From contig JAEYMU010000040.1 in assembly GCA_023407175.1 (NCBI GenBank), positions 84,038 to 148,037 of the forward strand: 64,000 bases of DNA, in the 5' to 3' direction. The notes under the pieces were generated by a model. It was not told the origin of the DNA. It did not search any database and saw nothing but the letters and a program-made list of their open reading frames with translations. Of the stretch, positions 12,311 through 29,545 are shown piece after piece; position 1 is the first letter of the stretch; each line of letters opens with the position of its first letter. A program made the position numbers and the translations under genes. The DNA is from Bacillota bacterium. Lineage in GTDB: Bacteria > Bacillota_A > Clostridia > Lachnospirales > Lachnospiraceae.

Positions 12311-13357
12311 TTATTTCATTGCTGCAAAGGTCAGGCTGTCATCAACGAAGTCGTCTACATTGCTTTTATCAATTACACCGGTTCCGGCATCCACATATTC
12401 ATCATAAGCTTCTCCCTTAAGAATCTTAAGTGTGGTGTCCACAGCGGCTTTACCAAGGGAACCTGGGTCGTTCATGGCTGTAATTGCATAAGCTCCTTCC
12501 TTGATCTTCTTTACGGCTTCCATCAATCCATCCACTCCGGTAACAACAACATCATTGATGCCATTCTCCTGAAGCACCTGTAATGCGCCTAACGACATAT
12601 CATCATTATGTCCGTAAACTGCGATAATATCAGGATTGCTTTGAATTAAGTCCTGTGTCGCAGTTACAGCCTTGGATCTTGTATAATCACAGTAGGCAGA
12701 TTGGATAACCTGAAGACCGGGTGCCTCTGCGATTGCATTTTCAAATCCGTCTCTTCTTGCCATCATTACTGTGTCACCGGCCGCACCCTGAATTTCAAGA
12801 ATTTTTCCGCTTGCTTTTTCTTTACCGCCGAGAAGCTCAACCAATGCTTCTCCCACCAGACGTCCCATTTCCTCGTTATCTCTTCCTACATAAGCCGTGT
12901 TTCCGTCGGAAACATTTCTGTCTACGGTAATAACCGGAATTCCTGCTGCCTTACACGCTTCGATACCGGGCTGTACTCCTTCGGCATTTACCGGATTCAG
13001 TATTAAAGCATCAATTCCGCTGGAAATCAGGTCCTGAATATCTGTATTTTGCTTTGAAACATCGTTTTGCGCATCGGCATAAACAAATTCAACCCCAAGT
13101 TCCTTTGCATAATCTTCCGCAACATCCTTCATGGCAACATAAAAGGGCGAATCTAAGATACATTGTGAAAACCCAATCTTATATGTAGTATCCTCACCAC
13201 TGTCTGAGGAAGCATCCGGTGCCTTTGTTGCATCACCTGTCTGTTCCGTTGAATTGTTATCGCCTGATGTCTCATCGGATTTTTGCGAACAACCGGCAAA
13301 CGATAATATCACCATCATTACCATCAACAAAGCTATACCCTTTTTACATTTTTTCAT
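12311..13357 (-). CDS. Sugar ABC transporter substrate-binding lipoprotein (RbsB-like)
   Basis: This 348-residue lipoprotein is of the periplasmic-binding-protein type I class (ribose/galactose/allose family). It has a signal peptide ending in a FAGC lipobox at about residues 22-25. A Ser/Thr/Asp-rich linker follows, then the binding domain with IDALILNPVNAEG, PVITVDRNV and YGHNDDMSLGALQ, typical of sugar binding. It is the last gene of the kinase-rbsA-rbsC-rbsB operon. The ATG at 13357 has AGGAG eight bases upstream; an in-frame GTG two codons earlier is less likely. The ligand is unknown; the context suggests a pentose, deoxy sugar or polyol. Confidence 0.88.
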   Translation of the reverse strand: MKKCKKGIALLMVMMVILSFAGCSQKSDETSGDNNSTEQTGDATKAPDASSDSGEDTTYKIGFSQCILDSPFYVAMKDVAEDYAKELGVEFVYADAQNDVSKQNTDIQDLISSGIDALILNPVNAEGVQPGIEACKAAGIPVITVDRNVSDGNTAYVGRDNEEMGRLVGEALVELLGGKEKASGKILEIQGAAGDTVMMARRDGFENAIAEAPGLQVIQSAYCDYTRSKAVTATQDLIQSNPDIIAVYGHNDDMSLGALQVLQENGINDVVVTGVDGLMEAVKKIKEGAYAITAMNDPGSLGKAAVDTTLKILKGEAYDEYVDAGTGVIDKSNVDDFVDDSLTFAAMK

Positions 13358-13442
13358 AATCACTTCTCCTTTTCTTGATTTTGCATTATTATATTATGAA
13401 GAGACTTTTTCAATAGTCCGGACTATTGAATGAGCAGCTCAA

Positions 13443-14396
13443 TCATACCGCTTTATTTTTCTTTTCCACAAGCATTTTATTAAGCAATAATGCGGCTACT
13501 ATGATCGCACCCTTTGCTATCTGCTGATAAAAGGATGCCAGTCCCACAAGATTAAAAATATTTGTAAGTATCTGCAACAGGAATACACCTCCAAAGGTTC
13601 CTATCACGGTTCCGACACCACCGGAAAGACTTGCCCCTCCGATAACAGCCGCAGCAATTGCGTTCAGCTCCATTCCGTCACCCGCTGTCGGCTGGCCGGT
13701 TGCCAGCCAGGAGGCGGTCAGAATACCGGCAAAAGCCGCCAGACAGGCTGATATTGCATAAGTAATGATGTAATTCATCCTCGTCTTTATTCCTGAGAGC
13801 ATGGCTGCTTCTTTATTACCCCCAATCGCATAAAGGCTTCGTCCAAAGGATGTGTATTTCAGCATAATAGATACAAGAATCGTTAATACAATCCATATAA
13901 TTCCGCTGATCGGCACACCTGATATAAACCCGCCGCCAAGCTTTCTGAAACCACCGCTTAATCCAAAAACCGGAACTCCCTTTGTTGTCAGCAGTGCGGC
14001 ACCTCTCGCCGCCTGCATCATAGCCAATGTTGTGATAAAATCCGGCAATTTGAATTTAGCGATCAGCAAACCATTCAGTGCACCTAATCCAACACCCAAA
14101 ACCAGACTGATTATAATCGCAGCCACAAAATTCATGTTATGGCTAAGCAGGATGGCGCATATCATACCCGAAAAAGCCGCAACGGATCCCACCGAGAGAT
14201 CAATACCGCCTATGATGATGACCAGTGTCATACCGATTGCCACCACTCCGGGAATGGATGCCTGCTGCAGCAGATTCAGAAAATTTTTAACCTTCAGGAA
14301 ACTAGGTGATAGAATCGAAGCGATTACAATAAAAACCAGCAGCAGCACTAACAAATTATACTTTTTTAACCATTCGCCCATATTAATTTTTTTCAT
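13443..14396 (-). CDS. Sugar ABC transporter permease (RbsC-like)
   Basis: This 317-residue permease of the ribose/xylose branched family has about eight to ten hydrophobic segments. The family signature GGIDLSVGSVAAFSGM is at about residues 63-78 and the conserved GGASLSGGVGT at about 250. It overlaps the ATP-binding gene by 14 bases and is followed by the binding protein gene. Together they form one importer whose substrate is probably the sugar processed by the neighbouring kinase and microcompartment. Confidence 0.92.
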   Translation of the reverse strand: MKKINMGEWLKKYNLLVLLLVFIVIASILSPSFLKVKNFLNLLQQASIPGVVAIGMTLVIIIGGIDLSVGSVAAFSGMICAILLSHNMNFVAAIIISLVLGVGLGALNGLLIAKFKLPDFITTLAMMQAARGAALLTTKGVPVFGLSGGFRKLGGGFISGVPISGIIWIVLTILVSIMLKYTSFGRSLYAIGGNKEAAMLSGIKTRMNYIITYAISACLAAFAGILTASWLATGQPTAGDGMELNAIAAAVIGGASLSGGVGTVIGTFGGVFLLQILTNIFNLVGLASFYQQIAKGAIIVAALLLNKMLVEKKNKAV

Positions 14397-15903
14397 CGTG
14401 AATTCCTCCTGTCACCGATACCTGTAATATTCTATCCTGATTAAAATTGGCTTTTGAAGATGCCATTACCTGCCTGCCGTCATACATAACCGAAATGTTG
14501 TCGCAGATTCTAAGCAATTCCTCCAATTCCGAAGAAACAACAATGATACTCTTTCCCTGCTCAGACAACATTCTTATTATTTTATATATTTCTTCCTTGG
14601 CCATAACATCGATGCCCTGTGTCGGCTCATCAATCAGCAGAATATCACAATCCTGGGCAAGCCATTTGGCAAGAACAACCTTCTGCTGGTTTCCGCCCGA
14701 TAAATTTTGTGTTACCGTTTTGATAGTCGGTGTTTTTATATTCAGCTTTTTCTTATAATCATGGCAGGTTTCATCAATGGATCTGTAATGAATAAATCCT
14801 CGTCTGATAAACCTTTTTAAGGCAACCATGGACATATTTTCCCAAACTGGAAGGATCAATATCAGTCCCTGTGTTTTTCTGTTTTCCGGCACCAGGCCGA
14901 TTTTATGCCTGATTGCATCCTTCGTGCTTTTAAAGCACACTTTTTTACCGTTTATCAGGATTTCTCCCCCGGTATATGGATCCACACCAAATATTGATCT
15001 GAGAATTTCAGTTCTCCCCGAGCCTACCAGGCCATAAAAGCCCAGCACCTCACCCTTATGCAATTTAAAATTAATTCCTGATACCTTATGATTGCTCATA
15101 TTCTTCATTTCCATGACCACCTGGTCGGATATGGGATTTACATCGCTCTCCTCCTTATGAAGCTGACTCAGTCTGGCGCCTGTCATATATTCCACCAGCA
15201 TATCTTCATTTAATTCATTCACCAGCTTGCAAACCACAAATTTTCCATCCCTGAGTACTGTAATTCTGTCACCGACAATAAACAATTCCTCTAAATGATG
15301 AGAGATATATATAATTGTGATGCCCGCCTTCTTTAAATCTTCAATGACCCTCAGCAAAGTTTCAAATTCGCTTTTGGATAAGGTAGAGGAGGGCTCATCC
15401 ATTACAATTAATTTTGCATTACTCGCCAACGCCTTCATAATTTCTGTCAGCTGACGCTGGCCGATATTCAATGACTTGATCTTTGCCTTGACATTAATCC
15501 TTAAATTCAACTGATCCGCAATTTCCTGCGTCTTCTTATAAACCTCGTTCCAATTGACCAGTCCCGCCTTATTTCTGGGATAATTGTTAATAAAAACATT
15601 TTCCCCCACATCCAATTCGTTAATTAATGACAGCTCCTGATAAATAACAGAAATACCCTGCTTTTTCCGTTCCAGTGTTCCATGGGGCCTTAACTCTTTT
15701 CCGTCAAAAATAATTTTGCCTCCGTCCTCAACATAAGCTCCGGACAGTATCTTCATTAATGTTGATTTACCCGCACCGTTGGCGCCGATCAGACAGTTGA
15801 CTTCACCGCGTTTCACACAAAAGTCTACCTTGTCTAAGGCTCTTACCCCCGGAAACAGTTTATCAATTGCTTTCATCTCCAAAATATTACCCTGTTCCTG
15901 CAA
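14383..15903 (-). CDS. Sugar ABC transporter ATP-binding protein (RbsA-like, tandem domain)
   Basis: This 506-residue protein has two ATP-binding cassettes, as in RbsA/XylG/MglA. The first has Walker A GANGAGKST (about 42-50) and Walker B LIVMDEPSS. The second has a degenerate Walker A (GLVGSGRTE), LSGGNQQKV and LLIDEPTQGID, a pattern usual for this family. The start is probably TTG with AAGGAGG nine bases upstream. It lies between the FGGY kinase gene and the permease gene in one operon and energises the importer. Confidence 0.92.
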   Translation of the reverse strand: MQEQGNILEMKAIDKLFPGVRALDKVDFCVKRGEVNCLIGANGAGKSTLMKILSGAYVEDGGKIIFDGKELRPHGTLERKKQGISVIYQELSLINELDVGENVFINNYPRNKAGLVNWNEVYKKTQEIADQLNLRINVKAKIKSLNIGQRQLTEIMKALASNAKLIVMDEPSSTLSKSEFETLLRVIEDLKKAGITIIYISHHLEELFIVGDRITVLRDGKFVVCKLVNELNEDMLVEYMTGARLSQLHKEESDVNPISDQVVMEMKNMSNHKVSGINFKLHKGEVLGFYGLVGSGRTEILRSIFGVDPYTGGEILINGKKVCFKSTKDAIRHKIGLVPENRKTQGLILILPVWENMSMVALKRFIRRGFIHYRSIDETCHDYKKKLNIKTPTIKTVTQNLSGGNQQKVVLAKWLAQDCDILLIDEPTQGIDVMAKEEIYKIIRMLSEQGKSIIVVSSELEELLRICDNISVMYDGRQVMASSKANFNQDRILQVSVTGGIHDEKN

Positions 15904-15933
15904 CTTAAATTTCCTCCTTTAACATAAGCTGTA

Positions 15934-17439
15934 TTACTGCTCATGCATCATATCTTTTAAGTTTTCATATAGCCCCAGATATCTTTTAAAATGGATTTTA
16001 TATTCTTCGTGATTCTTTAAATCAGGTTCTATAATAGATTTAGGCCGAACCATACCGCACGCCGCAGCATCAACATCCTTATAGCAGCCCGAGCCTGAAG
16101 CAGCTACCACACAGCAGCCCAGAACACCCGCCTGAGAATCCCTGTTTACAATTATTTTTTTACCCGTAACATCCGATATGATCTGCATCCATACATTATC
16201 CCTGGTAACTCCGCCACAGGCTGTAATCGAATGAATCTGATAACCCTGTGTTTCAAAATTACGGATAATATTATTTGTTCCGAAGGCTACGGATTCAATT
16301 AACGCACGGTAGACATGCTTCCATGTATGCTTAATATTCAGTCCGAATATGACTCCCTTCGCCATGGCATCCTTATAAGGTGTCCGATTGCCCTGAAAAA
16401 AATCAAGAACCGTAATTCCATCTGCACCAATCGGCATGTCGGCTGCACTTTTCTCCAGCATGGCATAAGGATTTCCGCCTTCATTCCCGATATGAAAGTT
16501 TTCCCTGAACCAATTTACCAGTCCTGAAGCCGAAATCTGTCCGCCCTCCAGCAGCCACAGACCATCGACAACCGCACTGTCATAGGGGCCCCAGACTCCT
16601 GATATATCCGGCTTATCCTGGGACAGGCACAAATGTACGAAGCTTGTACCCATGATAATCCCCAGCTTCCCCGGTCGAAGCACATCCAGTCCAAACATAG
16701 CCATATGCGCGTCTATCCCTCCCTGTACAACGAGCATACCCTTATTAATTCCAAAGGTCTCGGCAAGATCGGTACGGATTTTTCCAAGCACAGCTCCGAT
16801 TTTGTCAACCCGGGTCACGATTTTCTCTTCATAATCTTCGAAGCCTATTTCTTCGAAAAAATCTCTTTGATAACCGCCCAGGGATCTCACATAATTCCAC
16901 TTACAGGTAGTATTGCAGATAGAAGAAGACAAAATTCCGCACAGCTTAAAATTAATCCAATCCAACTGCTCCACCAGCCTATAGCAGCTATCATAAACCT
17001 CCCTACGATTATGCTTTATCCAAAGAGCCTTCGGGATCATCCACTCAAAGGAGGTCTCCTGACCGCAGTAATTCAAAACCGGGTGCTTCGAATGGTTGAT
17101 CTTTATCATTTCATTCTTTGATCTGGCATCCATCCACATCATGGCATCCATCAGAGGAGCCCCCTCTTTATCAATTGCAAAGACCGTGGAAGATGTGGAA
17201 CAGACGCTGCAGGCTATGATGTGCTGTTTCTCCTCCTCAGATAAATCATTCATGCAATTCTTGAGAGTATCAAGAATTGCATCCCACCAGTCAAGGGGCT
17301 TCTGTTCTGCCCATCCAATTTCGGGATATGTAGTTTTCCAGGACTTTTGATGACTGGTTATCATGTTTCCGTTTTCATCACAGATACCGATTCTGACCCC
17401 CTGCGTGCCTGTATCGATTCCCATAAAATAAGAATTCAT
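15934..17439 (-). CDS. FGGY-family carbohydrate kinase
   Basis: This 501-residue sugar kinase has the phosphate-binding GIDTGTQG motif at 7-14, the catalytic aspartate in GGIDAH (D243) and the adenosine-region motif ACGGVTRDN near 405. The family includes ribulo-, xylulo-, glycero- and erythritol kinases. The sequence looks closest to pentulose (ribulokinase-like) members, but the substrate cannot be read from sequence. It is the first full-length gene of the importer operon. Its ATG overlaps the stop codon of a 45-codon ORF as ATGA, so translation is probably coupled. Its product presumably feeds the aldolase microcompartment encoded nearby. Confidence 0.88.
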   Translation of the reverse strand: MNSYFMGIDTGTQGVRIGICDENGNMITSHQKSWKTTYPEIGWAEQKPLDWWDAILDTLKNCMNDLSEEEKQHIIACSVCSTSSTVFAIDKEGAPLMDAMMWMDARSKNEMIKINHSKHPVLNYCGQETSFEWMIPKALWIKHNRREVYDSCYRLVEQLDWINFKLCGILSSSICNTTCKWNYVRSLGGYQRDFFEEIGFEDYEEKIVTRVDKIGAVLGKIRTDLAETFGINKGMLVVQGGIDAHMAMFGLDVLRPGKLGIIMGTSFVHLCLSQDKPDISGVWGPYDSAVVDGLWLLEGGQISASGLVNWFRENFHIGNEGGNPYAMLEKSAADMPIGADGITVLDFFQGNRTPYKDAMAKGVIFGLNIKHTWKHVYRALIESVAFGTNNIIRNFETQGYQIHSITACGGVTRDNVWMQIISDVTGKKIIVNRDSQAGVLGCCVVAASGSGCYKDVDAAACGMVRPKSIIEPDLKNHEEYKIHFKRYLGLYENLKDMMHEQ

Positions 17440-17573
17440 AAAGCATTGCCCTCCACCGGCATTGTCACTTTGGATAAATCTTCATTAATCATTACCTCAT
17501 CCGCTTCAACCCCCGGCATAGCAACTTCCTCCACTCTGATATCTCCCAGGGCATAAAGTCTTACTGCTCTCAT
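17436..17573 (-). pseudogene. 45-codon ORF: N-terminal remnant of a zinc alcohol dehydrogenase
   Basis: This small ORF starts MRAVRLYALGDIRVEEV, nearly the same as the N-terminus of the Zn-dehydrogenase encoded at 22648-23712 (MRAVRLFAPKDIRCVEV). After about 24 residues it diverges and ends, so it has no catalytic cysteine, zinc site or cofactor domain. It has an AGAGGT-type ribosome site, and its TGA overlaps the ATG of the FGGY kinase gene. It may be a deletion remnant kept as a leader ORF for coupled translation of the kinase. Whether the peptide has a function is unknown. Confidence 0.6.
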
Positions 17574-17640: not shown

Positions 17641-17666
17641 TGCACAAGGAACATTTGTATATCTTC

Positions 17667-17958: not shown

Positions 17959-19122
17959 ATGATCAGAAGCTACCGCGAATTATTTCAGCCCGCTCATACG
18001 TTGATCGGCATGGGCTGTATCAATGAAATTCCCCGCTATATTGATGCGTTTAACGCCAAGAAAGCGTTCATCATTTCAGATGCAGGCCTGGTTAAGATAG
18101 GAACTGTAAAGAGAATAACCGATGTGCTGGACCGTGCCGGAAAAGCCTATGAGATTTTTGACAAGGTTCTTCCAAATCCCACCACCGCCATAGTAAAGGA
18201 AGCAACCGAGGCTCTTCAAAAGGAACGCTGTGACTATATTATCGGTATCGGAGGTGGCTCCCCGCTGGATGTTGCAAAGGCCGTCGGCATTCTGGCGGTT
18301 AACGGCGGAGAGATCAGGACCTATGAAGGTATTAATAAATCGGCTAAACCGGCTCTCCCCCTGATTGCCGTCAATACTACCGCCGGTACAGGCTCCGAGG
18401 TTACCCGGGATTATGTGATCACCGACGAGGACAAAAAAATAAAAATGCTTATGGTGGATTCCAATTGCCTTGCAGCCCTGGCAATTGACGACCCGCAGCT
18501 TATGCTTGAAATGCCTCCTCATCTGACTGCGGCAACCGGAATGGATGCGATGACTCACGCGATCGAGGCATATGTATGCAAATCTAATTTCCCCTATTCT
18601 AACGGACTTGCACTCGAGGCCATTGCGCTGGCAGCGAAATCCTTGAAGAAAGCTGTCCAGGAAGGCAATAATGCAGAAGCCAGAACGGATATGTGCTGGG
18701 CTGAATATATGGCCGGGCTGGCATTTTCCAATTCCGGACTGGGCCTGGTTCATGCAATGGCCCACCAGCTTGGCGGCTTTTACAACATGCCTCACGGTGT
18801 TGCCAATGCAATTCTTCTTCCCTTCGTAATGGAATACAATTCATTGGTATGCAAAGAGCGATATAGCGCCGTCGCAAAGGCACTCGGAATTAATACCGGC
18901 AAAATGACTGCGGATCAAGCTGCCAACGCGGCCATTCAGTTCATCCGGGATCTATCCTGTGAGCTCAATATCCCCTCTCTTCACTCCTTAGGCTTTAATC
19001 CGGCCGATGTGATTACCCTGTCGTTAAATGCTTTGAACGATACCTGCTTATCCGATAATCCAAGAAGCCCCAGTCTGGTTGATGTTCAGAACATCTATAT
19101 GAATGCCTATGAAAGCAAATAA
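17959..19122 (+). CDS. Iron-containing alcohol dehydrogenase
   Basis: This 387-residue group III alcohol dehydrogenase has the nucleotide-binding GGGSP at 98-102 and TAGTGSE near 141-147. The metal ligands appear as D196, H200, H265 and H279. The family reduces aldehydes or ketones with NAD(P)H (ethanol, 1,3-propanediol or lactaldehyde types). It has no N-terminal targeting extension, so it is probably cytosolic. Given the aldolase in this locus, reduction of acetaldehyde to ethanol is a plausible role (inference). The ATG at 17959 has GAAAGGAG upstream; the frame is open further upstream but without a ribosome site. Confidence 0.88.
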   Translation: MIRSYRELFQPAHTLIGMGCINEIPRYIDAFNAKKAFIISDAGLVKIGTVKRITDVLDRAGKAYEIFDKVLPNPTTAIVKEATEALQKERCDYIIGIGGGSPLDVAKAVGILAVNGGEIRTYEGINKSAKPALPLIAVNTTAGTGSEVTRDYVITDEDKKIKMLMVDSNCLAALAIDDPQLMLEMPPHLTAATGMDAMTHAIEAYVCKSNFPYSNGLALEAIALAAKSLKKAVQEGNNAEARTDMCWAEYMAGLAFSNSGLGLVHAMAHQLGGFYNMPHGVANAILLPFVMEYNSLVCKERYSAVAKALGINTGKMTADQAANAAIQFIRDLSCELNIPSLHSLGFNPADVITLSLNALNDTCLSDNPRSPSLVDVQNIYMNAYESK

Positions 19123-19192: not shown

Positions 19193-20161
19193 CTATTCAT
19201 CGTCAAGGCTATCATCACCAAACCTGTTCAGTACCCATCCAGCCGTTTCTTCATTTGTAATCAGTACATTAATACATCCGCCGTTCAAAGCCCCGCAAAT
19301 ACAATTCACCTTGCTTTGGCCCATGGCAACACCGATCCTGTATTCCTTTTCCCTGATATTCGCCAACGGTACGGCGATTGTTCTGTCATCCAGCTGCCGG
19401 TCACATAAATTACCGTTAAAATCAATGACATGGGAGCAAATATCACCTACCGCACCTTTTTCAGATAATTGTAACATTTGTTCCTTACTCAGATATCCCG
19501 CACTGACCAAAGCGCTCTGATTTCCAAAGGAGCCCATGGTAAACATAGCTATATTTGATTTCATGCCATAATCTATAATTCTATCAATATTATGATCCTG
19601 AAGCATAAATTTCTTCAAGGTACTGTCATCAACCACAGCCGGTAAAGGCAGTATATAGGGTGTTCCGGATAAAGCCGATGAAAAATTCTTTGCTATCTCT
19701 GTTGCATAAATATTACTTTTCAGATTACTGATACCTCCGCAAAGCTGTACGGTCACAATGTTATCCAAATCGTTTCTTTTAAAGGCCGCGCGTGAACAAT
19801 GATAAATCGTTTCACCCCAGGACAGGCCGATAATATCCCCGCTCTTCAAAATAGAATCCAAATATCTGGCGGCTTCCTTTCCTAACTTGGCGATCGGATT
19901 TTCATCTGTCCCCTTCGGCACTATGATTACTTTTTTCAAATTAAATTTATTTTTAAATTTTCTTTCCAGATTGGATTCAATTTTCGTAGGATCATGTACC
20001 TCAACCTTAACAATTCCCGACTCCTTCGCCTCATTCAATAGCTTTGATATGTATGGGCGCGAAAGATTAAGAGTTTTAGCCACCAGATCCTGGCTAAAAT
20101 TCTGTTCATAATACAGCTTTGCCACTTTAACCAAGAGCTCTATTTTTTTGTAGTCATGCAT
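19193..20161 (-). CDS. SorC-family (sugar-binding) transcriptional regulator
   Basis: This 322-residue regulator has an N-terminal helix-turn-helix (about residues 15-45, DLVAKTLNLSRPYISKLLNEA). A C-terminal sugar-phosphate-sensing domain starts near 60, with GLSWGETI and GDICSHVIDFNG typical of the SorC/DeoR-Bacillus/CggR family. These proteins bind phosphorylated sugars and usually leave their operators on binding. It sits between the importer/kinase/alcohol dehydrogenase genes and the microcompartment operon, so it is the best candidate local regulator. The start at 20161 is preferred because GGAGG lies eight bases upstream; an ATG five codons earlier overlaps that site. Confidence 0.88.
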   Translation of the reverse strand: MHDYKKIELLVKVAKLYYEQNFSQDLVAKTLNLSRPYISKLLNEAKESGIVKVEVHDPTKIESNLERKFKNKFNLKKVIIVPKGTDENPIAKLGKEAARYLDSILKSGDIIGLSWGETIYHCSRAAFKRNDLDNIVTVQLCGGISNLKSNIYATEIAKNFSSALSGTPYILPLPAVVDDSTLKKFMLQDHNIDRIIDYGMKSNIAMFTMGSFGNQSALVSAGYLSKEQMLQLSEKGAVGDICSHVIDFNGNLCDRQLDDRTIAVPLANIREKEYRIGVAMGQSKVNCICGALNGGCINVLITNEETAGWVLNRFGDDSLDDE

Positions 20162-20373
20162 ATTGTTATCCTCCATTATTAAGAATGCATTACGGTATTC
20201 TATGCTGGCTATTTTTTAAACCGATACATTGAGCTTATGCTGCCAATAAATAATATAGCACATATTTCAGGAATTATAAAGTTGTTATTAAACATTTTCC
20301 TTTGATTAAAAATTATCATAAAAAGCAATCATTCCATCCTTTGCTTTGCAAAAACGCAGAGATGAACTGCTGC

Positions 20374-22455
20374 CTACACAATAAATCTCTCGATTGCGCC
20401 GACCAGCTGCTGCGAATCCTCCTTTAGACAGCCCGCAGATTGATTCAGGGATTCGACCGACCGCAGCTGATTACCGGAGATCTGGCTCACGTTATTGCTC
20501 AGGGCGGCAATCTCCTCCAATACAGCTGAAATATTCTCGATTGCGCCCAGGGTATTTGCACGGGTCCCTTCCATATTCTCAACATTCTCAATGATCTGCC
20601 TGAGGTAATCCGTCAGGCGGTCGACACTTTCATTAATACCCCGATATGATTCCGCTGTGTTTTTTACCGCGTTATCCTGTAATACGATAACATTTTCGGC
20701 GCCTTTTGCGGTTTTTACCACATTCCGGGTGGTGTCCTGTATATTGTCAATAATATTCTTTATATCGTCAACAGAGCGCTTGGTCTGTTCTGCAAGGCTT
20801 CTTATTTCACCGGCAACGACCGCAAAGCCCATGCCTACTTCACCGGCTCTAGCCGCTTCTATGGAAGCATTCAGGGACAGCAGGTTTGTCTGATTGGATA
20901 TGTCATTGATTACATTTGTAATTGAACTGATTGACATTGATTTTTCCGCCAGCTCCTCGATTCCCTTTACAATTTCCGTTGTTATACTTATCGTTTGTTT
21001 GGTCTGGCTGGTAAGCTCCTGTGTCGCAGCTGTTCCCGCCAGGATGCTCTTCTTGGTTCCCTCTGCAATTTTTCCGATTTCACCGGCGCTGTAGCTCATC
21101 TTCTCTATTTTTCCGGACAGGCTGTCCATTTGATTCAGGCACTCTTCCGCCTCCTTCGCCTGAGTATTCACTCCCTGCTCAATTTCATTCATAGCGGAAG
21201 AAATATCACTGGTGGCTTTCAAAAACAGCTCGGAGGTTGACGATACATTGCCGGATGCTCTGGATACCTCTTCGCTTGATTCCTTTACCTGGCCTATAAG
21301 CCGCTTCATATTGGAAAATGTATTGTTTATTTCATTAATCAATAACCTGAATTCATCCTTGCGCCTGGTTGTAAAATCCACTGTCAGATCTCCGGCTGCT
21401 GCCTGCTTCAGCTTCCCGATAATATCCTTGATGGTTCTGTCTATCCCATATGATATGAACAAACCGATCATCACGGCAATAATGCATGCAATGATTACAA
21501 TTAAAACAGTAACGTGCTTAATCTTTTCAACCTGTTTAAGTATTGTGCTCTGTGGTATGACCGCACAAACCATGGCTCCCGTATCACCGATCCTGGAATA
21601 CATAAATAAGCTGCTTTTCCCCTGGAATTCAACATTAAAGGCATCACTCTCCTTATCCGAGGATACTGCCTTACTATAAAAATCCTTATCACAAAAGATA
21701 GCCTCCGAAGCCTGTCCGGTACCACTGTCTGTTATCTCTTTGCCGTCCGCCGTAACAAATGCAAGACTCCCTGTTTGATCAAAATTCATGCTTTGAAGGA
21801 TGTCTGTAACGGATTTACGATCCATATCAATAACAATAAGCGAATCTTCCCCAGTGTAGCTGCGAACCAGCCGCAATGCATACTTTTCCGGTCCTACTCC
21901 CAGCCGGCTGTCCAGATAATCATCCTGTCCCAGCCAGAGTATCTTCGCCGTACCCTTGATTACTGCGCCGTTCGTTGTCTCAAAATAGCCGCCGCATATT
22001 TTACTTATTATCGATGTCAGTGTCGTTGCAGACTGCTCCGAATCCGATAATACGGAAATATGAGAGATAAAATCATCCGCCGCTTCTTTTTCCAGAATGT
22101 CATTTTTAATATTCTTAAAATTCTTTGTTTTAAGCGATATATCATAATCATAGGTGCCTAAAAAGTATTTATTCATAATGTTATCATTCAGATATTGATC
22201 TGATGCGGCTTCCACCGAATCCACACCCATGCTTATATACTTCCCTGTCATCTCAATCGCCTGCCGGGTAGATTTCTCATAGCTGCTTCGTATGCCCTCA
22301 GATGCCGTATTAAAGGAAACTGCCCCCAGAAATATAATAAAGGCAATCGGTACAAAAAAACAGACAATCAGCTTCGCGCGTATTGTTAAAAAGTTGTGGC
22401 TGACCTGATGCTTTACTTTATGATCAGCCTTACGCTTTATCCTACGGTTCTTCAT
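20374..22455 (-). CDS. Methyl-accepting chemotaxis protein
   Basis: This 693-residue chemoreceptor has a first membrane segment at about 28-48 after a very basic N-terminus. An extracellular sensor of about 270 residues follows (Cache-like in layout), then a second membrane segment at about 325-348, a HAMP linker and a long cytoplasmic signalling domain. The signalling hairpin tip contains [19 protein letters not shown]. Its position directly downstream of the microcompartment operon suggests that it detects a substrate of that pathway (inference). The ATG at 22455 follows GGGAGG. Confidence 0.92.
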
Positions 22456-22527
22456 ATGATTTCCTCCCTTGTGATTCAATTATTCCTTTTCCGGCGCCGC
22501 AGGAGATAAAATACAGCAGTTGAAAAA

Positions 22528-22647: not shown

Positions 22648-23712
22648 TTACAGTTCCGGCTTAAATAAAACCTTTGTAAACACCTCTGTCCTGTTATACA
22701 TCATTTCAAATACCTGTTTACATTCCTCGAGGCGGACACGGTGCGTTATGAGCGGATTTACGTTGATCTGCCCGCTATGCATAAATTCGAGAGCACTCTG
22801 CCATTCATTAACCGGCAGTGGATTAATAGAAGAGTTCCAGCTGCCGTAGATTTTTAATTCCCCCCGTAAAATACTGGCAATGGCTTTATTGGGAAAGGTA
22901 ACATCATCGTATGTAATGCCTCCGTATACAACCTCTCCGTTTTTCTTACAAGCTTCAACCGCCTGTACATGGGTGATTTTATTCCCGGCAAATTCAATCG
23001 CGATGTCGACACCTTCACCCCCGGTTAACTCTTTGATTGCCTTCACGGCATCCCCTTCCTTACCGTTTACGCCATGGGTGGCACCAAGACGCTTCGCCAG
23101 CCTTAATTTATCCTCCGCTACATCGACAGCAATCACTGTGGTACAGCCCAGGGCCTTCAGCCACTGTGCCGTTATATAGCCAATTGCCCCCAGCCCAAAC
23201 ACCGCAGCTGATTTTCCGGCTATAATTTCCACTTTTCTGACAGCATGAAGGCCCACGGATACCGGATCTGTAAAAGAGCCCATTTCATAATCCACGTTGG
23301 CGGGAAGCTTTAAGCAGTTTCCCGACTCAACAACAATATATTCCGCCATCGCCCCGTCTCTTCTTGAACCATAGTAATCATAGGTATCACATAAATGCGA
23401 CTGACCAACCTTGCAATACTGGCATTCCCCGCATGGAAGCAGGGGCATTACCGCCACCCTGTCCCCGATGGCAAGTCCTCCCTTGACCTTATCGCCGCAA
23501 TTAATAACTTCACCGGCAAATTCATGACCGATTGTGGTTGGGAAATGATAGGTTCCCTTTACCATAACACGGGGTATGTCAGAGCCGCAGACCCCGCAGC
23601 TTTTCACCTTAATTAAAACCTGGGTATCCTTCTCGATTGACGGGACATCAACCTCAACACATCTGATATCCTTTGGTGCAAATAAACGTACCGCTCTCAT
23701 CTTCTGAGCCAT
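22648..23712 (-). CDS. Zinc-dependent alcohol/polyol dehydrogenase
   Basis: This 354-residue medium-chain dehydrogenase has a catalytic zinc site (C42 in SCGVCGSD, GHE at 62-64) and structural zinc cysteines C94, C97, C100 and C108. The Rossmann motif GLGAIGY is near 174. It resembles sorbitol, galactitol-1-phosphate and related polyol(-phosphate) dehydrogenases. It is the last gene of the microcompartment operon, downstream of deoC. It could oxidise a polyol phosphate to the sugar phosphate used by the aldolase, or reduce an aldehyde product; sequence alone does not decide. The ATG follows AAGGAGG. No targeting helix is present. Confidence 0.85.
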   Translation of the reverse strand: MAQKMRAVRLFAPKDIRCVEVDVPSIEKDTQVLIKVKSCGVCGSDIPRVMVKGTYHFPTTIGHEFAGEVINCGDKVKGGLAIGDRVAVMPLLPCGECQYCKVGQSHLCDTYDYYGSRRDGAMAEYIVVESGNCLKLPANVDYEMGSFTDPVSVGLHAVRKVEIIAGKSAAVFGLGAIGYITAQWLKALGCTTVIAVDVAEDKLRLAKRLGATHGVNGKEGDAVKAIKELTGGEGVDIAIEFAGNKITHVQAVEACKKNGEVVYGGITYDDVTFPNKAIASILRGELKIYGSWNSSINPLPVNEWQSALEFMHSGQINVNPLITHRVRLEECKQVFEMMYNRTEVFTKVLFKPEL

Positions 23713-24518: not shown

Positions 24519-24557
24519 AATTACCTCCATTTTGTGCTTCCAAAATCCAACTATACT

Positions 24558-24857
24558 TTAAATATGAAACGATGAGTGAACCTCTGCTTCGGAAATAGCA
24601 GGCAACTGATCCAATATGCCCAAAATCGCGGCATCCGTATAAACATCATTTCCAATAATCATCTTTGCAGAACCGCCCTCCGCCGTATACAGCACATAAT
24701 CACCGATTCCGGCACAGCTATTATCCATGGCAAGCAGAACCGGACCGCGTTCCGCGCCTGATTCATCCACCCCCCGAATCATCATAAGCTTTTTCCCATA
24801 GTGGGAGGGAATCTTAATTATTGAAATTAAATTGCCTACTACCTTTCCTATTGTCAA
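24558..24857 (-). CDS. BMC pentameric vertex protein (EutN/CcmL type), copy 1
   Basis: This 99-residue protein matches the EutN/CcmL (BMC-P) fold. It starts TIGKVVGNLIS after the initiator and ends with the conserved TDAAILGILD segment. Pentamers of this family cap the vertices of the microcompartment shell. The start is a TTG with GGAAAGGA about eight bases upstream, four bases downstream of the TAA of the preceding hexamer gene. The frame is open further upstream only through overlap with that gene. Three paralogues in one locus is usual for many BMC types. Confidence 0.9.
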   Translation of the reverse strand: MTIGKVVGNLISIIKIPSHYGKKLMMIRGVDESGAERGPVLLAMDNSCAGIGDYVLYTAEGGSAKMIIGNDVYTDAAILGILDQLPAISEAEVHSSFHI

Positions 24858-24858
24858 T

Positions 24859-25281
24859 TTATTTTTCCTTTCCCGGAAGAATATTTTCAACATCACTGTG
24901 AGGACGGGGAATAACATGAACCGATACCAATTCACCTACGCGCTTAGCCGCTGCCGCGCCAGCCTCTGTAGCCGCCTTTACAGCTCCGACATCTCCCCTT
25001 ACCATGACGGTAACCAGACCGCTTCCTATCATTTCCTTGCCTATCATTTTGACATTAGCAGCCTTTACCATAGCATCTGCCGCTTCGATGGCTCCTACTA
25101 ATCCTCTTGTTTCTATCATTCCTAATGCATTCTGTTCCATTATTTTCATTTCCTTTCTGATTGGTTTTTGATCGACTGATATTTTATTTTCAACTCTGGC
25201 TGAAACCGGATTATTCCCTGGCTGCAAGACATCGGCGGCTTTATTTTCCACTGTCTTTAAAGTCTTCTTCATTGTATCCAT
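24859..25281 (-). CDS. BMC hexameric shell protein, copy 1, with possible 47-residue N-terminal extension
   Basis: The BMC-H (PduA/CcmK-like) domain starts at [20 protein letters not shown] and has the pore loop GSGLV and the conserved HVIPRPH strand. Hexamers tile the shell facets. Two starts are plausible. The ATG at 25140, with AAAGGAA nine bases upstream, gives an ordinary 93-residue protein. The ATG at 25281 overlaps the stop of the upstream BMC-H gene as TAATG, which favours coupled translation, and adds a basic, helix-prone N-terminus of 47 residues. Both forms could be made, as with PduB and PduB' in propanediol compartments (analogy, not evidence). Confidence 0.9.
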
Positions 25282-25550
25282 TACGGAAGAATTCCTTCGA
25301 CATCCTCATGCGGACGCGGAATTACATGAATGGACACAACCTCCCCGATTCTCTTTGCCGCTGCCGCTCCGGCCTCCGTAGCTGATTTTACAGCTCCGAC
25401 GTCTCCTCTTACCAATACAGTAACCAATCCGCTGCCAGCCTTTTCTTTTCCGATCAATTGTACATTTGCTGATTTCACCATTGCGTCAGCTGCCTCAATT
25501 GCCGCCACAAGGCCTCTTGTTTCCACCATTCCTAGTGCATTTTTTTCCAT
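25281..25550 (-). CDS. BMC hexameric shell protein, copy 2
   Basis: This 89-residue BMC-H protein starts [20 protein letters not shown], has the pore loop GSGLV and ends with [15 protein letters not shown]. It is about 80 percent identical by eye to the BMC domain of the next gene, so the pair looks like a recent tandem duplication. The ATG at 25550 follows AAAGGAG; a GTG six codons upstream is unlikely. It lies downstream of two BMC-P genes in the same operon. Confidence 0.95.
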
Positions 25551-25578
25551 TCCCGATACTCCTTTCACACTTAAATTT

Positions 25579-25842
25579 TTATTTTTGAAGCCTCATTTCA
25601 TCTACAATGCCTACGATACTTGCATCCACAGGTACCATTCCAGCATTCAGAGCATTTGCTCCTTCCTTGCTGGAAGCAATGTAAACTTCATCACCATAAC
25701 CTGCCACATGGGATGCGTCTGCCGCCACCAGTATTTTATCCCCCATGTCCTTCGATAATCTGACAATAAGCAGCTTCACACCTGTGAGGGTTATATCCTT
25801 CGCCGTTGAAGTAATTGTACCAATAACCCTGCCGACAAACAT
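25579..25842 (-). CDS. BMC pentameric vertex protein (EutN/CcmL type), copy 2
   Basis: This 87-residue BMC-P protein starts [15 protein letters not shown] and ends with [12 protein letters not shown], both typical of EutN/CcmL vertex proteins. The ATG at 25842 has GGAGGTG at the right distance. The frame is open for 27 more codons upstream, but those residues do not resemble the family. Confidence 0.92.
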
Positions 25843-25923
25843 CTTTTCACCTCCAAGTCCCGGACCGGTATTAATATTTATATCCCATGAAAGTACATGG
25901 GAGCGACAAGATAACCGGAACAA

Positions 25924-26238
25924 TCACTCCGGTGTATCTTTGCCTTCGTATTTATGAAAGACGGTTTTTCCATCTATTTCTATGGAATCAATAATTCCGA
26001 TAATCGCCGCGTCCACCGGCCTCTTTTCTGAGATTGCAGAAAGTCTGGCCGAGCTTCCGCTCACCACCAGCACCGTCTCCATCTCACCCGCCCCCACCGT
26101 GTCTACGGCAACATAAATCTTCGACCCCGGCTGCATGGTATTCATATCAATTGTTCTTACGACAAGAAGGGACAGTCCCTTCAGCCCGTCTGTTTTATTC
26201 GTGCTTACGACATTACCAATTACTTTGCATACCTCCAT
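25924..26238 (-). CDS. BMC pentameric vertex protein (EutN/CcmL type), copy 3
   Basis: This 104-residue BMC-P protein starts MEVCKVIGNVVSTNKTDG, carries the VDTVGAGEMETVLVVSGSSAR core and has the conserved VDAAIIGIID segment. A C-terminal tail of about 18 residues (charged, KTVFHKYEGKD) extends past the usual end. A GGGGGATC site precedes the ATG. It lies in the shell operon after the BMC-associated protein of unknown function. Confidence 0.92.
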   Translation of the reverse strand: MEVCKVIGNVVSTNKTDGLKGLSLLVVRTIDMNTMQPGSKIYVAVDTVGAGEMETVLVVSGSSARLSAISEKRPVDAAIIGIIDSIEIDGKTVFHKYEGKDTPE

Positions 26239-26308
26239 AGTGATCCCCCGTTTCTGCGTATGGCCATGATCTATTCAACGCCGTCCCGGCAATATCGGAA
26301 AACAGTCT

Positions 26309-27025
26309 TTACTCCGGACAAAGCCGTATAATCCTTATATTATTCTCACAGATTATATCATTGGCCAGCGGGGTAATGATGCATCTGGCACTCACCGTAA
26401 TTTCGCCACTCCCTTCTCTCAGGGCATTTTTCACATCCTCTTCCAATAATACGGAAGGAGCGGCAATCTCTTTGCTCTTTGCTTCCGGCTGATTGAGATA
26501 ACAGATTCCGCACCCCAGTGCTTTTGCCTCAGCAAGCAGCTTATGATAGGTTTTCTGCACCAGATTCCTGTTTTCTATTCTCCTCGGCAGAACAATTCGT
26601 ACCTGTTTTCCTAAAAGCAGTGCCTTAATCAGCAATTTTACCGCCGGGTGGCAGCTGCCTCCAAGCTTGACCAACTGCTCCAAAAGCTCGATGTCCGGTG
26701 CATATATATCCATCTGCCGCACCTCGTCAAGACACCCATTCCATTTCCTGCATGTGGCCGGATTTTCGATATCATATACAAAATCCACCTGCATTTGCGC
26801 CCGCAATGCCCTCATATATTCCGCGAACTCCAAATCCCTGCAGATATTTTCCAGTGTCATTACAATTGCTTTCGGCTCCCCGGGATTTTCTTTTTTATCA
26901 GCTATGGCAGCTTTTTTATCAGCATCCGGTTCCTTACCCGCAATCAGTTCTCTGACGCTGCTGTCATTTAGTTGATTTATGTATTCTCTTACTAAATCCT
27001 CAATCATTTTTTTATGATCCGCCAC
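26309..27025 (-). CDS. BMC-associated protein of unknown function with targeting-like helix
   Basis: This 238-residue protein has an N-terminal amphipathic helix (about residues 6-19, KMIEDLVREYINQL) and a charged, disordered-looking linker to about 60. A mixed alpha/beta domain follows, ending in ITVSARCIITPLANDII, a tail seen in several BMC-associated proteins. The overall layout recalls the TIGR02536-type proteins of Gram-positive eut/pdu loci, whose biochemical role is not established. The GTG at 27025 has GGAGG seven bases upstream; an ATG at 27055, overlapping the tpiA end, is the alternative. No catalytic motif is recognised. Confidence 0.65.
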   Translation of the reverse strand: MADHKKMIEDLVREYINQLNDSSVRELIAGKEPDADKKAAIADKKENPGEPKAIVMTLENICRDLEFAEYMRALRAQMQVDFVYDIENPATCRKWNGCLDEVRQMDIYAPDIELLEQLVKLGGSCHPAVKLLIKALLLGKQVRIVLPRRIENRNLVQKTYHKLLAEAKALGCGICYLNQPEAKSKEIAAPSVLLEEDVKNALREGSGEITVSARCIITPLANDIICENNIRIIRLCPE

Positions 27026-27047
27026 ACCCAGTCCTCCATTTGACACA

Positions 27048-27842
27048 TCACTCATCAAGCAGGCCGATAATCTTTTTAAACGCCTCCGGCTTTAAGCTTG
27101 CTCCGCCGATTAAAAAACCGTCAACATTTTCTATTTTACTGATTTCTCCCACATTTTTTTCATTAACACTTCCTCCGTAGAGCAGGGCAGCCTGTCTTCC
27201 GAACATATTCTTGACTACCCCCTTGATGTAATCATGAGTTTCCCTGATTTCCTCAAGACTGGCGCTTACTCCTGTGCCGATTGCCCATACGGGTTCATAG
27301 GCTACGATTATGCCAGAAAGCATATCCTGTGTTATTCCGTGCAGATCCTCTGTGATCTGCTCCTTTATCACCACTTTCCAGGTTCCGTTCCTGCGCTGCT
27401 CCAGATTTTCACCGATGCAGACCAGGATGTTCAACCCATATTTGACACCAGCATGTACTTTTTTGTTGATTTCCTTATCCGTCTCATTATAATATGCTCT
27501 TCTTTCCGAATGTCCCGTCAACGCATAATCACACCCCAGCTCCTGAAGCATGGGTATTGAAATTTCACCGGTATAGGCACCACTTTCCTTGTAATGAAAG
27601 CTTTGCGGACCATAATGAATGTTTTCCGCTCTAAATTCCCCTGATAATGCGGCCAGAGAAGTATAAGGCGGGAAGATGACCAGCGTATTTGCCGTTTTAA
27701 TGCTTTCCATTTCAGTTAAGAATTTTTTCCCTTCCGAAATAGTCATATTCATCTTCCAATTACCGGCAATTATCAGCTTCTTCCTCAGACTACCGTACAA
27801 GGCATCTTTTACCGCCATAAAAATGTCATTTTTATTGATCAT
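27048..27842 (-). CDS. tpiA: Triosephosphate isomerase with N-terminal extension
   Basis: This 264-residue enzyme interconverts glyceraldehyde-3-phosphate and dihydroxyacetone phosphate. The catalytic residues are K30 (NWKMN), H111 (GHSERR) and E183 (AYEPVWAIGTG), and the phosphate loop YGGSV is at 222-226. Ordinary enzymes start at the equivalent of R20, so about 20 residues are extra. They form a helix-prone segment (NKNDIFMAVKDALYGSLR) resembling a BMC encapsulation peptide. Only the outer ATG has a ribosome site (AGGCGG), which supports the extension. It is the first gene of the shell operon, so it probably acts on the aldolase product inside the compartment. Related isomerases act on tetrulose phosphates in erythritol pathways, an alternative. 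Confidence 0.9.
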   Translation of the reverse strand: MINKNDIFMAVKDALYGSLRKKLIIAGNWKMNMTISEGKKFLTEMESIKTANTLVIFPPYTSLAALSGEFRAENIHYGPQSFHYKESGAYTGEISIPMLQELGCDYALTGHSERRAYYNETDKEINKKVHAGVKYGLNILVCIGENLEQRRNGTWKVVIKEQITEDLHGITQDMLSGIIVAYEPVWAIGTGVSASLEEIRETHDYIKGVVKNMFGRQAALLYGGSVNEKNVGEISKIENVDGFLIGGASLKPEAFKKIIGLLDE

Positions 27843-27863
27843 TTCAATTACCGCCTTTAATTA

Positions 27864-27901
27864 GTTACTTTTGATTATTGCTTTGTAAATTATGTTACTT
27901 T
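27864..27901. promoter_or_regulatory. Direct-repeat operator candidate before the microcompartment operon
   Basis: Two copies of GTTACTTT (27864-27871 and 27894-27901) are spaced 30 bases, about three helical turns. They lie at and just downstream of the expected start of transcription. No binding protein is known. Confidence 0.3.
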
Positions 27902-27907
27902 ATTTGT

Positions 27908-27936
27908 AGAATAGCATACCCTTTTTTAAATGTCAA
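27908..27936 (-). promoter_or_regulatory. Sigma-A promoter of the microcompartment operon
   Basis: On the minus strand there is TTGACA (27931-27936), a 17-base spacer ending in TATGC, and TATTCT (27908-27913). It lies about 65 bases upstream of the tpiA ATG. Confidence 0.75.
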
Positions 27937-28111
27937 CCAATTTTCATAAAAACGCAAATTAATTGATAATTACATCCAATACTCCACGGAATTTTATCTG
28001 TGAGAGCAGCTTCAGCTCATGAAAGCAAATTAATCGGCGCCCTGATTATCCAGTAATCAATATCGTTTGATAGTTATTCTGCATCAATTGTCACAAAAAA
28101 CTGCTATTTAA

Positions 28112-28140
28112 TAGACATCTATTTTCTCCTATGCTATAAT
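28112..28140 (+). promoter_or_regulatory. Sigma-A promoter of the glycerol-1-phosphate dehydrogenase-like gene
   Basis: On the plus strand there is TAGACA (28112-28117), a 17-base spacer and a perfect TATAAT (28135-28140). Transcription should start near 28147, which rules out the in-frame ATG at 28148. Confidence 0.7.
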
Positions 28141-28186
28141 TGCTGTCATGATAAAACAAATCCATCTCCGAAAGAAGGGTGTTATT

Positions 28187-29545
28187 ATGCTGCTATCCAG
28201 CCATTTATCTATTACAGAAATGATCCAAAGAGATTTTCCCTGCGAATGCGGACGAACCCACTTAGCTTCAATTAACTATGCAGCAATCGGTGAAGGGGTT
28301 CTGAAGGAGCTCCCGGGACTGCTGTTAAAAAATAGTCTTCAAAAATCCTTTATTCTATGTGATTCCTCCACCTATGCGGCTGCAGGTAAGTTCATTGTTA
28401 ACGAAATGAAGAACAGAGGACTTCCTTTTGTTAGCTATATAATCAATGAAGCTGAACCGGTACCGGACGAAAAAACACTCGGTGAGCTTTTAATCCATAT
28501 GGATCATGACTGCGACCATATCATCGCAGTTGGAAGCGGAACCATCAATGACCTCAGCCGTTTCTTAAGCTTCCGGCTTGGTCTGCCCTATATTATAGCC
28601 GCCACCGCTCCTTCGATGGACGGTTTCGCCTCCAATGTTGCGCCGCTGATTGTTAAGCACATGAAAACCACCTACGAGGCACATGCTCCCTTTGCTATTT
28701 TTGGCGATACCTCTGTTTTGGCCAAGGCCCCCCTTCTGATGATATTTGCGGGTATCGGAGATATCCTGGGAAAATACACCTGTCTTTGTGATTGGAGGGT
28801 ATCCCATATTCTAACAGGCGAATATCATTGTAAGATAATTGAAGCTATTGTAAAGCAGTCGATCGAAACGGTTGTAAGCCAGTTGGAACACGTGAAAAGC
28901 GGTGATCCAGGAGCAGTTGAAAACATTATGGAGGCTCTGGTTTTATCCGGTATTGCCATGAGCTTTTCCGGTAATTCAAGACCCGCATCAGGAAGCGAAC
29001 ACCATTTGTCCCATTACTGGGAAATGGTATTTTTATTTAACGGCAAAAAGCCGGTTCTTCACGGAACCAAGGTCGGGATTGGCACAATTGCAGTTATCCG
29101 GGCCTATGAATTACTGCTGTCCCGGAACATAGATTTTAAACGTGCAAGAGAGCTTGCTAAAATGTACTCCTTTGATGACTGGAAGCAAAAGATGAGGGCA
29201 GCCTACGGCCCTGCCTCTGATTCCGTCATCGCGCTTGAGGAGAAGCTTGGAAAGAATAGAACTTCGGACCGCCTTATGCGGATTGATTTAATAGAAAAGC
29301 ACTGGGACAGGCTGAAGGAAGTCATTGGTCAGCTTCCTTTAGCCGATACGGTATATGATTATTTATCCGAGCTTGGAGCTCCCGCCACACCGATGGCTGT
29401 CGGGATTGATAAGCAAACCTTTCTTGTAAGCTTTGCCGCAGCCAAGGAATTACGCAACCGCTTTGGATTGCTCCAGATACTGTATGATTTAAATCTATCG
29501 GAAGAAACAGCAGAGCTTGTATGGGACTATTTTATGAATAAGTAA
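28187..29545 (+). CDS. AraM/EgsA-like sn-glycerol-1-phosphate dehydrogenase
   Basis: This 452-residue protein resembles the AraM/EgsA group, which reduces dihydroxyacetone phosphate with NADH to sn-glycerol-1-phosphate. It has GSGTINDLSRFL (nucleotide binding), a SMDGFAS segment, and metal-ligand histidines in SGSEHHLSHYWE and in VLHGTKVGIGT. Members often accompany sugar operons in Firmicutes. It is divergent from the microcompartment operon and would use the product of the triosephosphate isomerase, a possible NADH sink (inference). The ATG at 28187 follows AGAAGGG. The end is followed by a long inverted repeat before the convergent peptidase gene. Confidence 0.85.
   Translation: MLLSSHLSITEMIQRDFPCECGRTHLASINYAAIGEGVLKELPGLLLKNSLQKSFILCDSSTYAAAGKFIVNEMKNRGLPFVSYIINEAEPVPDEKTLGELLIHMDHDCDHIIAVGSGTINDLSRFLSFRLGLPYIIAATAPSMDGFASNVAPLIVKHMKTTYEAHAPFAIFGDTSVLAKAPLLMIFAGIGDILGKYTCLCDWRVSHILTGEYHCKIIEAIVKQSIETVVSQLEHVKSGDPGAVENIMEALVLSGIAMSFSGNSRPASGSEHHLSHYWEMVFLFNGKKPVLHGTKVGIGTIAVIRAYELLLSRNIDFKRARELAKMYSFDDWKQKMRAAYGPASDSVIALEEKLGKNRTSDRLMRIDLIEKHWDRLKEVIGQLPLADTVYDYLSELGAPATPMAVGIDKQTFLVSFAAAKELRNRFGLLQILYDLNLSEETAELVWDYFMNK

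Follow-up and report, generated by a model that had tools for sequence, protein, structure and literature searches.

The DNA stretch analyzed here, a 64 kb window, carries at positions 12311–29545 a bacterial microcompartment (BMC) locus in which shell genes are joined to the genes of deoxyribose-phosphate aldolase (DeoC) and triosephosphate isomerase (TPI). The locus is read, at moderate confidence, as a reduced metabolosome of a DeoC/TPI kind, which resembles the sugar-phosphate-utilizing (SPU) microcompartments but has no RpiB, and whose shell, cargo and substrate are predicted here from the genes. Searches with its zinc-dependent dehydrogenase (ZnADH) found the module in four distinct genomes, namely Robinsoniella (G001) and the genomes designated G384, G592 and G717.

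Shell operon and putative encapsulation signals

As shown in Table 1, the genes of TPI, a PduM-like protein, BMC-P, BMC-P, BMC-H, BMC-H, BMC-P, DeoC and ZnADH follow one another in a single minus-strand operon (27842–22648), with intergenic gaps of 22, 70, 0, 10, −1, −77, 27 and 35 bp in this order, and all nine (9/9) are uninterrupted open reading frames (ORFs). The presence of the shell, TPI, DeoC and ZnADH in one tight operon is counted in favor of a DeoC/TPI metabolosome. Families were named using Pfam and NCBIfam models with curated (equivalog) cut-offs. Two PF00936 (BMC) and three PF03319 (EutN_CcmL) proteins in the window exceed the Pfam cut-off, and both shell components that a BMC locus generally requires, BMC-H and BMC-P, are present. 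DeoC and TPI pass their curated NCBIfam cut-offs. Their active-site motifs, in which the residue roles are presumed, are present, as are the motifs looked for in ZnADH. A preliminary description of the locus had listed two BMC-H, three BMC-P, deoC, tpiA and the flanking genes, and each of these was found where it had been placed; the PduM-like protein, the helix of DeoC, the extension of TPI and the position of ZnADH as the final gene of the shell operon are additions to it.

The N-terminus of DeoC has, judged from its sequence, a clear encapsulation-type helix. The helix moment of 0.78 was matched by 1 of 2000 shuffles, and the corresponding counts for the DeoCs of Robinsoniella, G384 and G592 were 13, 29 and 124 of 2000. 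A strict pattern of the encapsulation-peptide (EP) type occurs in all five DeoCs (5/5) of the module loci. When the first 45 residues were considered for the 148 ORFs of at least 150 amino acids in the window and seven fetched stretches, the EP-like pattern was found in nine, five of which are DeoCs; the background was 37 of 993 internal 45-residue windows. The FGGY kinase, the AraM-like protein and Pta, which are expected to be untagged, were matched by 387, 460 and 594 of 2000 shuffles, respectively. The two aldehyde dehydrogenases (AldDHs) tested gave 43/2000 (G384) and 1678/2000 (G592), and the latter value indicates that the test misses some expected tags. All four relative genomes have further DeoC paralogues elsewhere. 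The DeoCs of G384 (L056:1186-2031) and G717 (L064:13793-14638) are 281 amino acids long, and that of G384 ends in a cysteine-rich tail, CVGCGNCTKKC, resembling an iron-sulfur motif; a tail of this sort is absent from the window DeoC.

The TPI of the operon is probably a dedicated BMC paralogue. In a set of 88 TPI clusters at E ≤ 1e-60, taken from the best-sharing 8000 candidates scored, an N-terminal extension of at least 18 residues is present in 46 of the 47 closest clusters, the remaining one starting inside the barrel, and in 7 of the next 41, where six resemble the extension of the G384 type. At 47–75% identity, TPIs with such an extension are found across dozens of database clusters. Robinsoniella, G384 and G717 have six further TPIs between them, all of which start directly at the barrel. 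This extension, a family trait that the six other TPIs do not have, is likewise counted for a DeoC/TPI metabolosome. In the tree, a single clade of 12 rows unites the extended TPIs and separates them from the housekeeping TPIs (support 93/97, under the starred level), and the TPIs of G592 (on a long branch), L005 and L016 lie outside it. The G592 TPI (L062:15329-16174) is extended at its C-terminus by about 25 residues, which could be a tag at the opposite end. In the AlphaFold (AF2) model of P0003, which is 99% identical to the window TPI and was modeled with 29 others, residues 4–17 form a helix and the barrel is confident; the pLDDT is 79 for residues 1–10 and 64 for residues 11–20. The extension is possibly an encapsulation address tag. 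A higher helical moment of the family profile at 90 degrees (0.59 versus 0.33 at 100 degrees) was an after-the-fact finding and was set aside as evidence for such a tag.

The two BMC-H proteins both read GSG at the presumed pore position, and a BMC-H with an N-terminal extension occurs in L058 and L062 as well. The PduM-like protein scored 29.8 bits against TIGR02536 (cut-off 152.6) and 27.5 bits against PduM PRK15428 (cut-off 179), both below cut-off, and the moment of its N-terminal helix was matched by 25 of 2000 shuffles. Among 1202 candidates, two proteins match it at E ≤ 0.001, the more similar at 99% identity, and its counterpart in G384 follows TPI as in the window. The structure model is of low confidence (pLDDT 60.7), and Foldseek gave no match to it at E ≤ 0.001.

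ZnADH has the highest conservation among the module enzymes, with 70–88% identity in the four other genomes. Its nearest solved structure is galactitol-1-phosphate 5-dehydrogenase (4a2c, 217.6 bits). The N-terminus of ZnADH is not EP-like, its moment being matched by 372 of 2000 shuffles.

Cofactor-recycling genes and related loci

The window was searched by tblastn using AldDH, RnfC, Pta and BMC-T of G384, PduL of Robinsoniella and one RpiB as queries. None of the genes of AldDH, RnfC, Pta, PduL and BMC-T turned up in the 64 kb, where the BMC-T query matched the two BMC-H genes only and the single RpiB query gave no match. Of the classical metabolosome core of AldDH, phosphotransacylase (PTAC) and alcohol dehydrogenase (AlcDH), only proteins of the alcohol-dehydrogenase type were found. 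The earlier statement that the locus lacks AldDH and phosphotransacylase is thus borne out over this length.

A genome scan based on TPI gave 38 loci, of which four (L001, L005, L016 and L033) match the shell proteins of the window in the fetched stretch and 34 do not. Searches with ZnADH at E ≤ 1e-150 in overlapping genome samples found 2/397, 2/392, 2/145, 1/145 and 1/396 genomes, and the DeoC/TPI module is rare among the sampled genomes. L001, from Robinsoniella peoriensis, is a clear orthologue with FGGY kinase (69%), TPI (51%), DeoC (70%), ZnADH (88%), regulator (65%) and one BMC-H. R. peoriensis is the closest named relative of the locus, which makes a Clostridium of Lachnospiraceae-like affinity the likely source.

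In three of the four orthologous loci (G384, G717 and G592), AldDH, RnfC and BMC-T are present, and Pta additionally in G384 and G717. The order in G384 is regulator, importer, ZnADH2, a ureidoglycolate-lyase-like gene, FGGY, FGGY2, ZnADH3, ZnADH and TPI, followed by PduM-like, AldDH, RnfC, BMC-T, BMC-H, BMC-H, DeoC, three BMC-P and Pta. G717 keeps this order from a truncated FGGY2 through Pta, and its fetched stretches gave no match to the regulator, the substrate-binding protein (SBP) or permease of the importer, or the first FGGY. Directly past the truncated FGGY2, three ORFs that resemble serine recombinases in translation lie at L065:4530-9373, as if a mobile element had been inserted. 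In G592 the order is TPI, AldDH, RnfC, BMC-T, BMC-H, BMC-H, DeoC, ZnADH, three BMC-P and a divergent regulator, and no Pta was matched on the 23-kb contig. Against PRK15398 (cut-off 403), which we take to be the EutE/PduP-type AldDH model, the AldDHs of G384 and G592 scored 645 and 630 bits; that of G717 is 95% identical to that of G384. The RpiB genes of G384 and G717 are either about 0.9 Mb distant or on a different contig, and those of G592 are on other contigs of the fragmented assembly.

The module of Robinsoniella (C22:230–233 kb) has one BMC-H and no BMC-P within the 20.7 kb stretch; the genome gave 21 BMC-domain matches and two BMC-P matches, both BMC-P being away from the module. Its AldDHs are at C22:266 kb (49% to the G384 AldDH) and, more weakly, at C22:350 kb (35%). 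The former belongs to a BMC locus about 33 kb from the module with PduL, RnfC, BMC-T, BMC-H and a class II aldolase. The arrangement of these genes suggests relocation of AldDH or its sharing between BMC loci.

In G384 the PduM-like gene is followed by the AldDH-RnfC-BMC-T block, whereas in the window it is followed directly by the shell genes, in an order unlike that of G384. Because three of the four orthologous loci carry the block, its loss or relocation in the lineage of the window is the simplest reading, and the absent core is probably derived; the direction of this change was judged from four relatives and without a rooted tree of the loci. The missing core had been taken as a distinctive trait of the locus, which this comparison does not favor, the more so as the AldDH of Robinsoniella is in a separate BMC locus. 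The Spirochaete and Bacteriovoracales contigs of L005, L016 and L033 have DeoC, AldDH, RnfC, a BMC-T-like gene and shell genes with TPI near by, and one RpiB query gave no match in their fetched stretches.

Neighboring genes

Beside the operon are a chemoreceptor, a regulator of the DeoR/SorC type, an iron-dependent alcohol dehydrogenase (Fe-ADH) on the plus strand, an FGGY kinase and a ribose-type importer, and an AraM-like gene lies upstream of the operon in divergent orientation (Table 1). The ABC ATPase of the importer and the chemoreceptor were named from their translations alone. The kinase, both dehydrogenases, the regulator, the SBP and permease of the importer and the AraM-like enzyme match their families below every equivalog cut-off, so that these matches do not fix the substrates.

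Table 1. Features of the microcompartment locus and its surroundings in the window
Feature	Position	Strand	Basis
TPI, N-terminal extension of ~20 residues	27048..27842	-	TIGR00419, 150.2 bits (cut-off 130.6)
PduM/TIGR02536-like BMC accessory protein, N-terminal amphipathic helix	26309..27025	-	matches below cut-off
BMC-P a (pentamer)	25924..26238	-	PF03319, 97.4 bits
BMC-P b	25579..25923	-	PF03319, 61 bits
BMC-H a	25281..25568	-	PF00936, 102.9 bits
BMC-H b, possible N-terminal extension of ~45 residues, start codon uncertain	24859..25281	-	PF00936, 101.1 bits, residues 52-127
BMC-P c, start codon uncertain, ORF overlapping BMC-H b	24558..24935	-	PF03319, 56.3 bits
DeoC, N-terminal encapsulation-type helix	23748..24530	-	TIGR00126, 296 bits (cut-off 117.3)
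ZnADH, GatD-like, final gene of shell operon	22648..23712	-	homology, structure match 4a2c
Chemoreceptor	20374..22479		translation
SorC/DeoR-type regulator	19193..20176	-	NF053881, 327.9 bits (cut-off 420)
Fe-ADH, FucO-like, proposed acetaldehyde reductase	17959..19122	+	lactaldehyde reductase model
FGGY carbohydrate kinase	15934..17439	-	PF00370/PF02782
Ribose-type ABC importer (SBP 12311-13363, permease 13443-14396, ATPase 14383-15903)	12311..15903	-	
AraM-like glycerol-1-phosphate dehydrogenase	28148..29545	+	family match

The FGGY kinase is closest to pentulose-type kinases and has orthologues in L001 (69%, partial) and L055 (59%). Fe-ADH scored 443.3 bits against the lactaldehyde reductase model (cut-off 523.15), and a 68% orthologue adjoins the same kinase in Robinsoniella; no match to it was found in the fetched stretches of the three AldDH-bearing loci. 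The moment of its N-terminus was matched by 57 of 2000 shuffles in the window and by 395 of 2000 in the Robinsoniella orthologue, and this N-terminus reads in its sequence as the ordinary start of the family. The best model of the regulator is DeoR of Bacillus (NF053881), well above LsrR (151.3 bits), and orthologues are present in L001, L055 and L062. The importer scored 184.1 bits against RbsB and 252.8 bits against the ribose permease, both under the equivalog cut-offs. Autoinducer-2 (AI-2, Lsr) systems use the same families of kinase, regulator and importer; this assignment was rejected, as the ribulokinase and DeoR models outscore the AI-2 kinase and LsrR models.

The preliminary description had included the AraM-like enzyme and the chemoreceptor in the locus. 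Neither was matched in the stretches fetched for the four orthologous loci; both were rejected as parts of the module and are probably neighbors. The AraM-like enzyme could consume dihydroxyacetone phosphate (DHAP). Directly upstream of the FGGY kinase, a 45-codon open frame (17439-17573, minus strand) resembles the N-terminus of the Zn-ADH family, with 57% identity to ZnADH of the window over about 29 residues (E 7e-5). A second Zn-ADH gene was probably once present and has left this fragment, which fits gene loss at this locus.

Comparison with known microcompartments

SPU loci are named, in the account of Axen 2014 (PMC4207490) as far as it concerns them, for an aldolase of the DeoC type together with RpiB and AldDH, and the part of Sutter 2021 (PMC8217296) on these loci gives PF01791 (DeoC) and PF02502 (RpiB) as common to all seven subtypes. 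The window shares the DeoC-type aldolase (found with TIGR00126, the published criterion being PF01791) and, by inference, the products acetaldehyde and glyceraldehyde 3-phosphate (G3P). It differs in that RpiB (PF02502) and a CoA-acylating AldDH were not found within the 64 kb, and it has instead the extended TPI, the GatD-like dehydrogenase and the FGGY kinase. G384, G717 and G592 have DeoC and AldDH, with RpiB elsewhere only. Because RpiB and AldDH were not found in the window, the locus is filed as a variant related to SPU and not as a member. The suggestion that it may belong to a known sugar-phosphate-utilizing class stands for the aldolase signature and not for the two other enzymes. The pairing of DeoC with TPI had also been regarded as distinctive; however, the same portion of Axen 2014 (PMC4207490) already notes a TPI in one Atribacteria SPU locus.

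The section of the BMC Caller paper (PMC9052549) on an unassigned locus of a Firmicute metagenome-assembled genome describes it as a probable new SPU subtype. Like the window, it is from a Firmicute and has the SPU signature enzymes and two types of BMC-H, one N-terminally extended; unlike the GSG of both window proteins, the pore of one BMC-H is lysine-lined. Going by that section, the locus may be of the same kind as the window.

In the microcompartments with class II aldolases (PVM, GRM5 and like types), the aldolase also splits a sugar phosphate into an aldehyde and a triose phosphate, which are lactaldehyde and DHAP in the fucose/rhamnose route as outlined in PMC5322786. Here, however, the aldolase family is PF00596, and the example in Robinsoniella has its own AldDH and PduL. 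BUF loci, as characterized in the corresponding part of Axen 2014 (PMC4207490), resemble the window in having shell genes without AldDH or PTAC, but they contain amidohydrolases and deaminases, whereas the window has a readable sugar-phosphate pathway. BUF is defined by the absence of AldDH, PTAC and AlcDH alike; in the 64 kb no AldDH or PTAC was found, but Fe-ADH is a neighbor of the operon. The open-license literature of PubMed Central yielded no account of a DeoC/TPI type that lacks RpiB, the supplements of BMC catalogues and closed-access papers being outside the search; the locus may already be listed under a type name in those supplements.

Proposed pathway and alternative explanations

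In the proposed pathway, a pentose-type sugar or alditol would be imported and then receive a phosphate from the FGGY kinase. Where needed, the GatD-like dehydrogenase would oxidize the product to a 2-deoxyaldose 5-phosphate. In the lumen of a shell of BMC-H and BMC-P, the tagged DeoC would cleave this phosphate to acetaldehyde and G3P, and TPI would convert G3P to DHAP at the same site; the families of both enzymes are established. The equilibrium of DeoC favors condensation and that of TPI favors DHAP. Because of this, a lumenal TPI would pull the unfavorable cleavage by DeoC and would also remove a reactive aldehyde. The shell would retain acetaldehyde, for which two fates are proposed, singly or together: reduction to ethanol by the neighboring Fe-ADH, and transfer to an acylating AldDH encoded at a separate BMC locus, a route to which the Robinsoniella genome points. 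An AldDH-RnfC-BMC-T block, missing in the window, would have been part of the ancestral locus. The route from kinase through deoxy-sugar phosphate, acetaldehyde and G3P to DHAP had been proposed before and remains the most natural reading of these genes, but that proposal left out the GatD-like ZnADH, the most conserved enzyme of the module.

Several observations weigh against this pathway. The dehydrogenase step is its weak point, since plain deoxyribose needs no dehydrogenase, yet ZnADH is the best conserved enzyme. The FGGY kinase has no match on the 23-kb G592 contig, which carries a ketohexokinase-like gene in its place, nor in the G717 stretches except for the truncated FGGY2, and the importer is not orthologous to those of Robinsoniella and G384 (SBP 26–28%). 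As a tag, the TPI extension has ordinary amphipathicity: the shuffles matching its moment were 505/2000 in the window, 1179/2000 in G384 and 33/2000 in Robinsoniella, the family profile was not significant (2784/10000 and 2523/20000), and TPI fails the strict EP pattern. The G592 TPI has no N-terminal extension and falls outside the extended clade. No operator common to the promoter regions of the shell operon, the kinase/Fe-ADH, the regulator and the chemoreceptor was found; the best ungapped 16-mer exceeded all of six shuffles in 0/6 region pairs.

The same dehydrogenase raises the question of the substrate. The kinase and the GatD-like dehydrogenase might handle another polyol or ketose than a 2-deoxypentose, with DeoC and TPI acting on a related phosphate, and this is the most serious of the alternatives, though we consider it unlikely. 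A dehydrogenase is superfluous in a plain deoxyribose pathway, the nearest matches are pentulose-type kinases and galactitol-1-phosphate 5-dehydrogenase, all under equivalog cut-offs, and a further FGGY kinase and two additional Zn-ADHs are encoded in related loci; however, DeoC exceeds its cut-off by a wide margin, and DeoR of Bacillus is the best model of the regulator. ZnADH could have a further role if the metabolosome were free of coenzyme A (CoA) and needed neither AldDH nor PTAC, with NAD recycled between the GatD-like dehydrogenase, which would make NADH, and Fe-ADH, which would reduce acetaldehyde to ethanol. The location of ZnADH within the shell operon and of Fe-ADH beside the kinase is consistent with this, as is the occurrence of Fe-ADH in the window and in Robinsoniella, the lineages that have no AldDH at the module itself, and not among the matches in the AldDH-bearing stretches. 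Nevertheless, a separate BMC locus of Robinsoniella, the closest relative, includes an AldDH, the N-terminus of ZnADH is not EP-like, the signal of Fe-ADH is not repeated in the Robinsoniella orthologue, and the absence of AldDH holds for 64 kb only. Such cycling is rated as improbable, and its full form, a CoA-free shell with tagged DeoC and tagged TPI, NAD passing back and forth between Fe-ADH and a polyol(-phosphate) dehydrogenase, and ethanol and DHAP as products, as marginally more so. The missing block and the truncated Zn-ADH piece could also be signs of a decaying, non-functional remnant of a larger locus. This is very improbable in view of the nine uninterrupted ORFs of the operon, the motifs present in TPI, DeoC and ZnADH, and the recurrence of extended TPIs across the database clusters.

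Read as a reduced DeoC/TPI metabolosome, the locus points to a BMC lineage set apart from SPU by the isomerase it uses, in which a glycolytic enzyme would occur as a dedicated and possibly address-tagged paralogue. The series of loci in which AldDH is local (G384, G717 and G592), in another BMC locus (Robinsoniella) or not known (the window) would show how the core of a metabolosome is lost or shared. The lineage also makes testable whether such an organelle serves to hold acetaldehyde or to draw an unfavorable aldol cleavage forward through the immediate removal of G3P.

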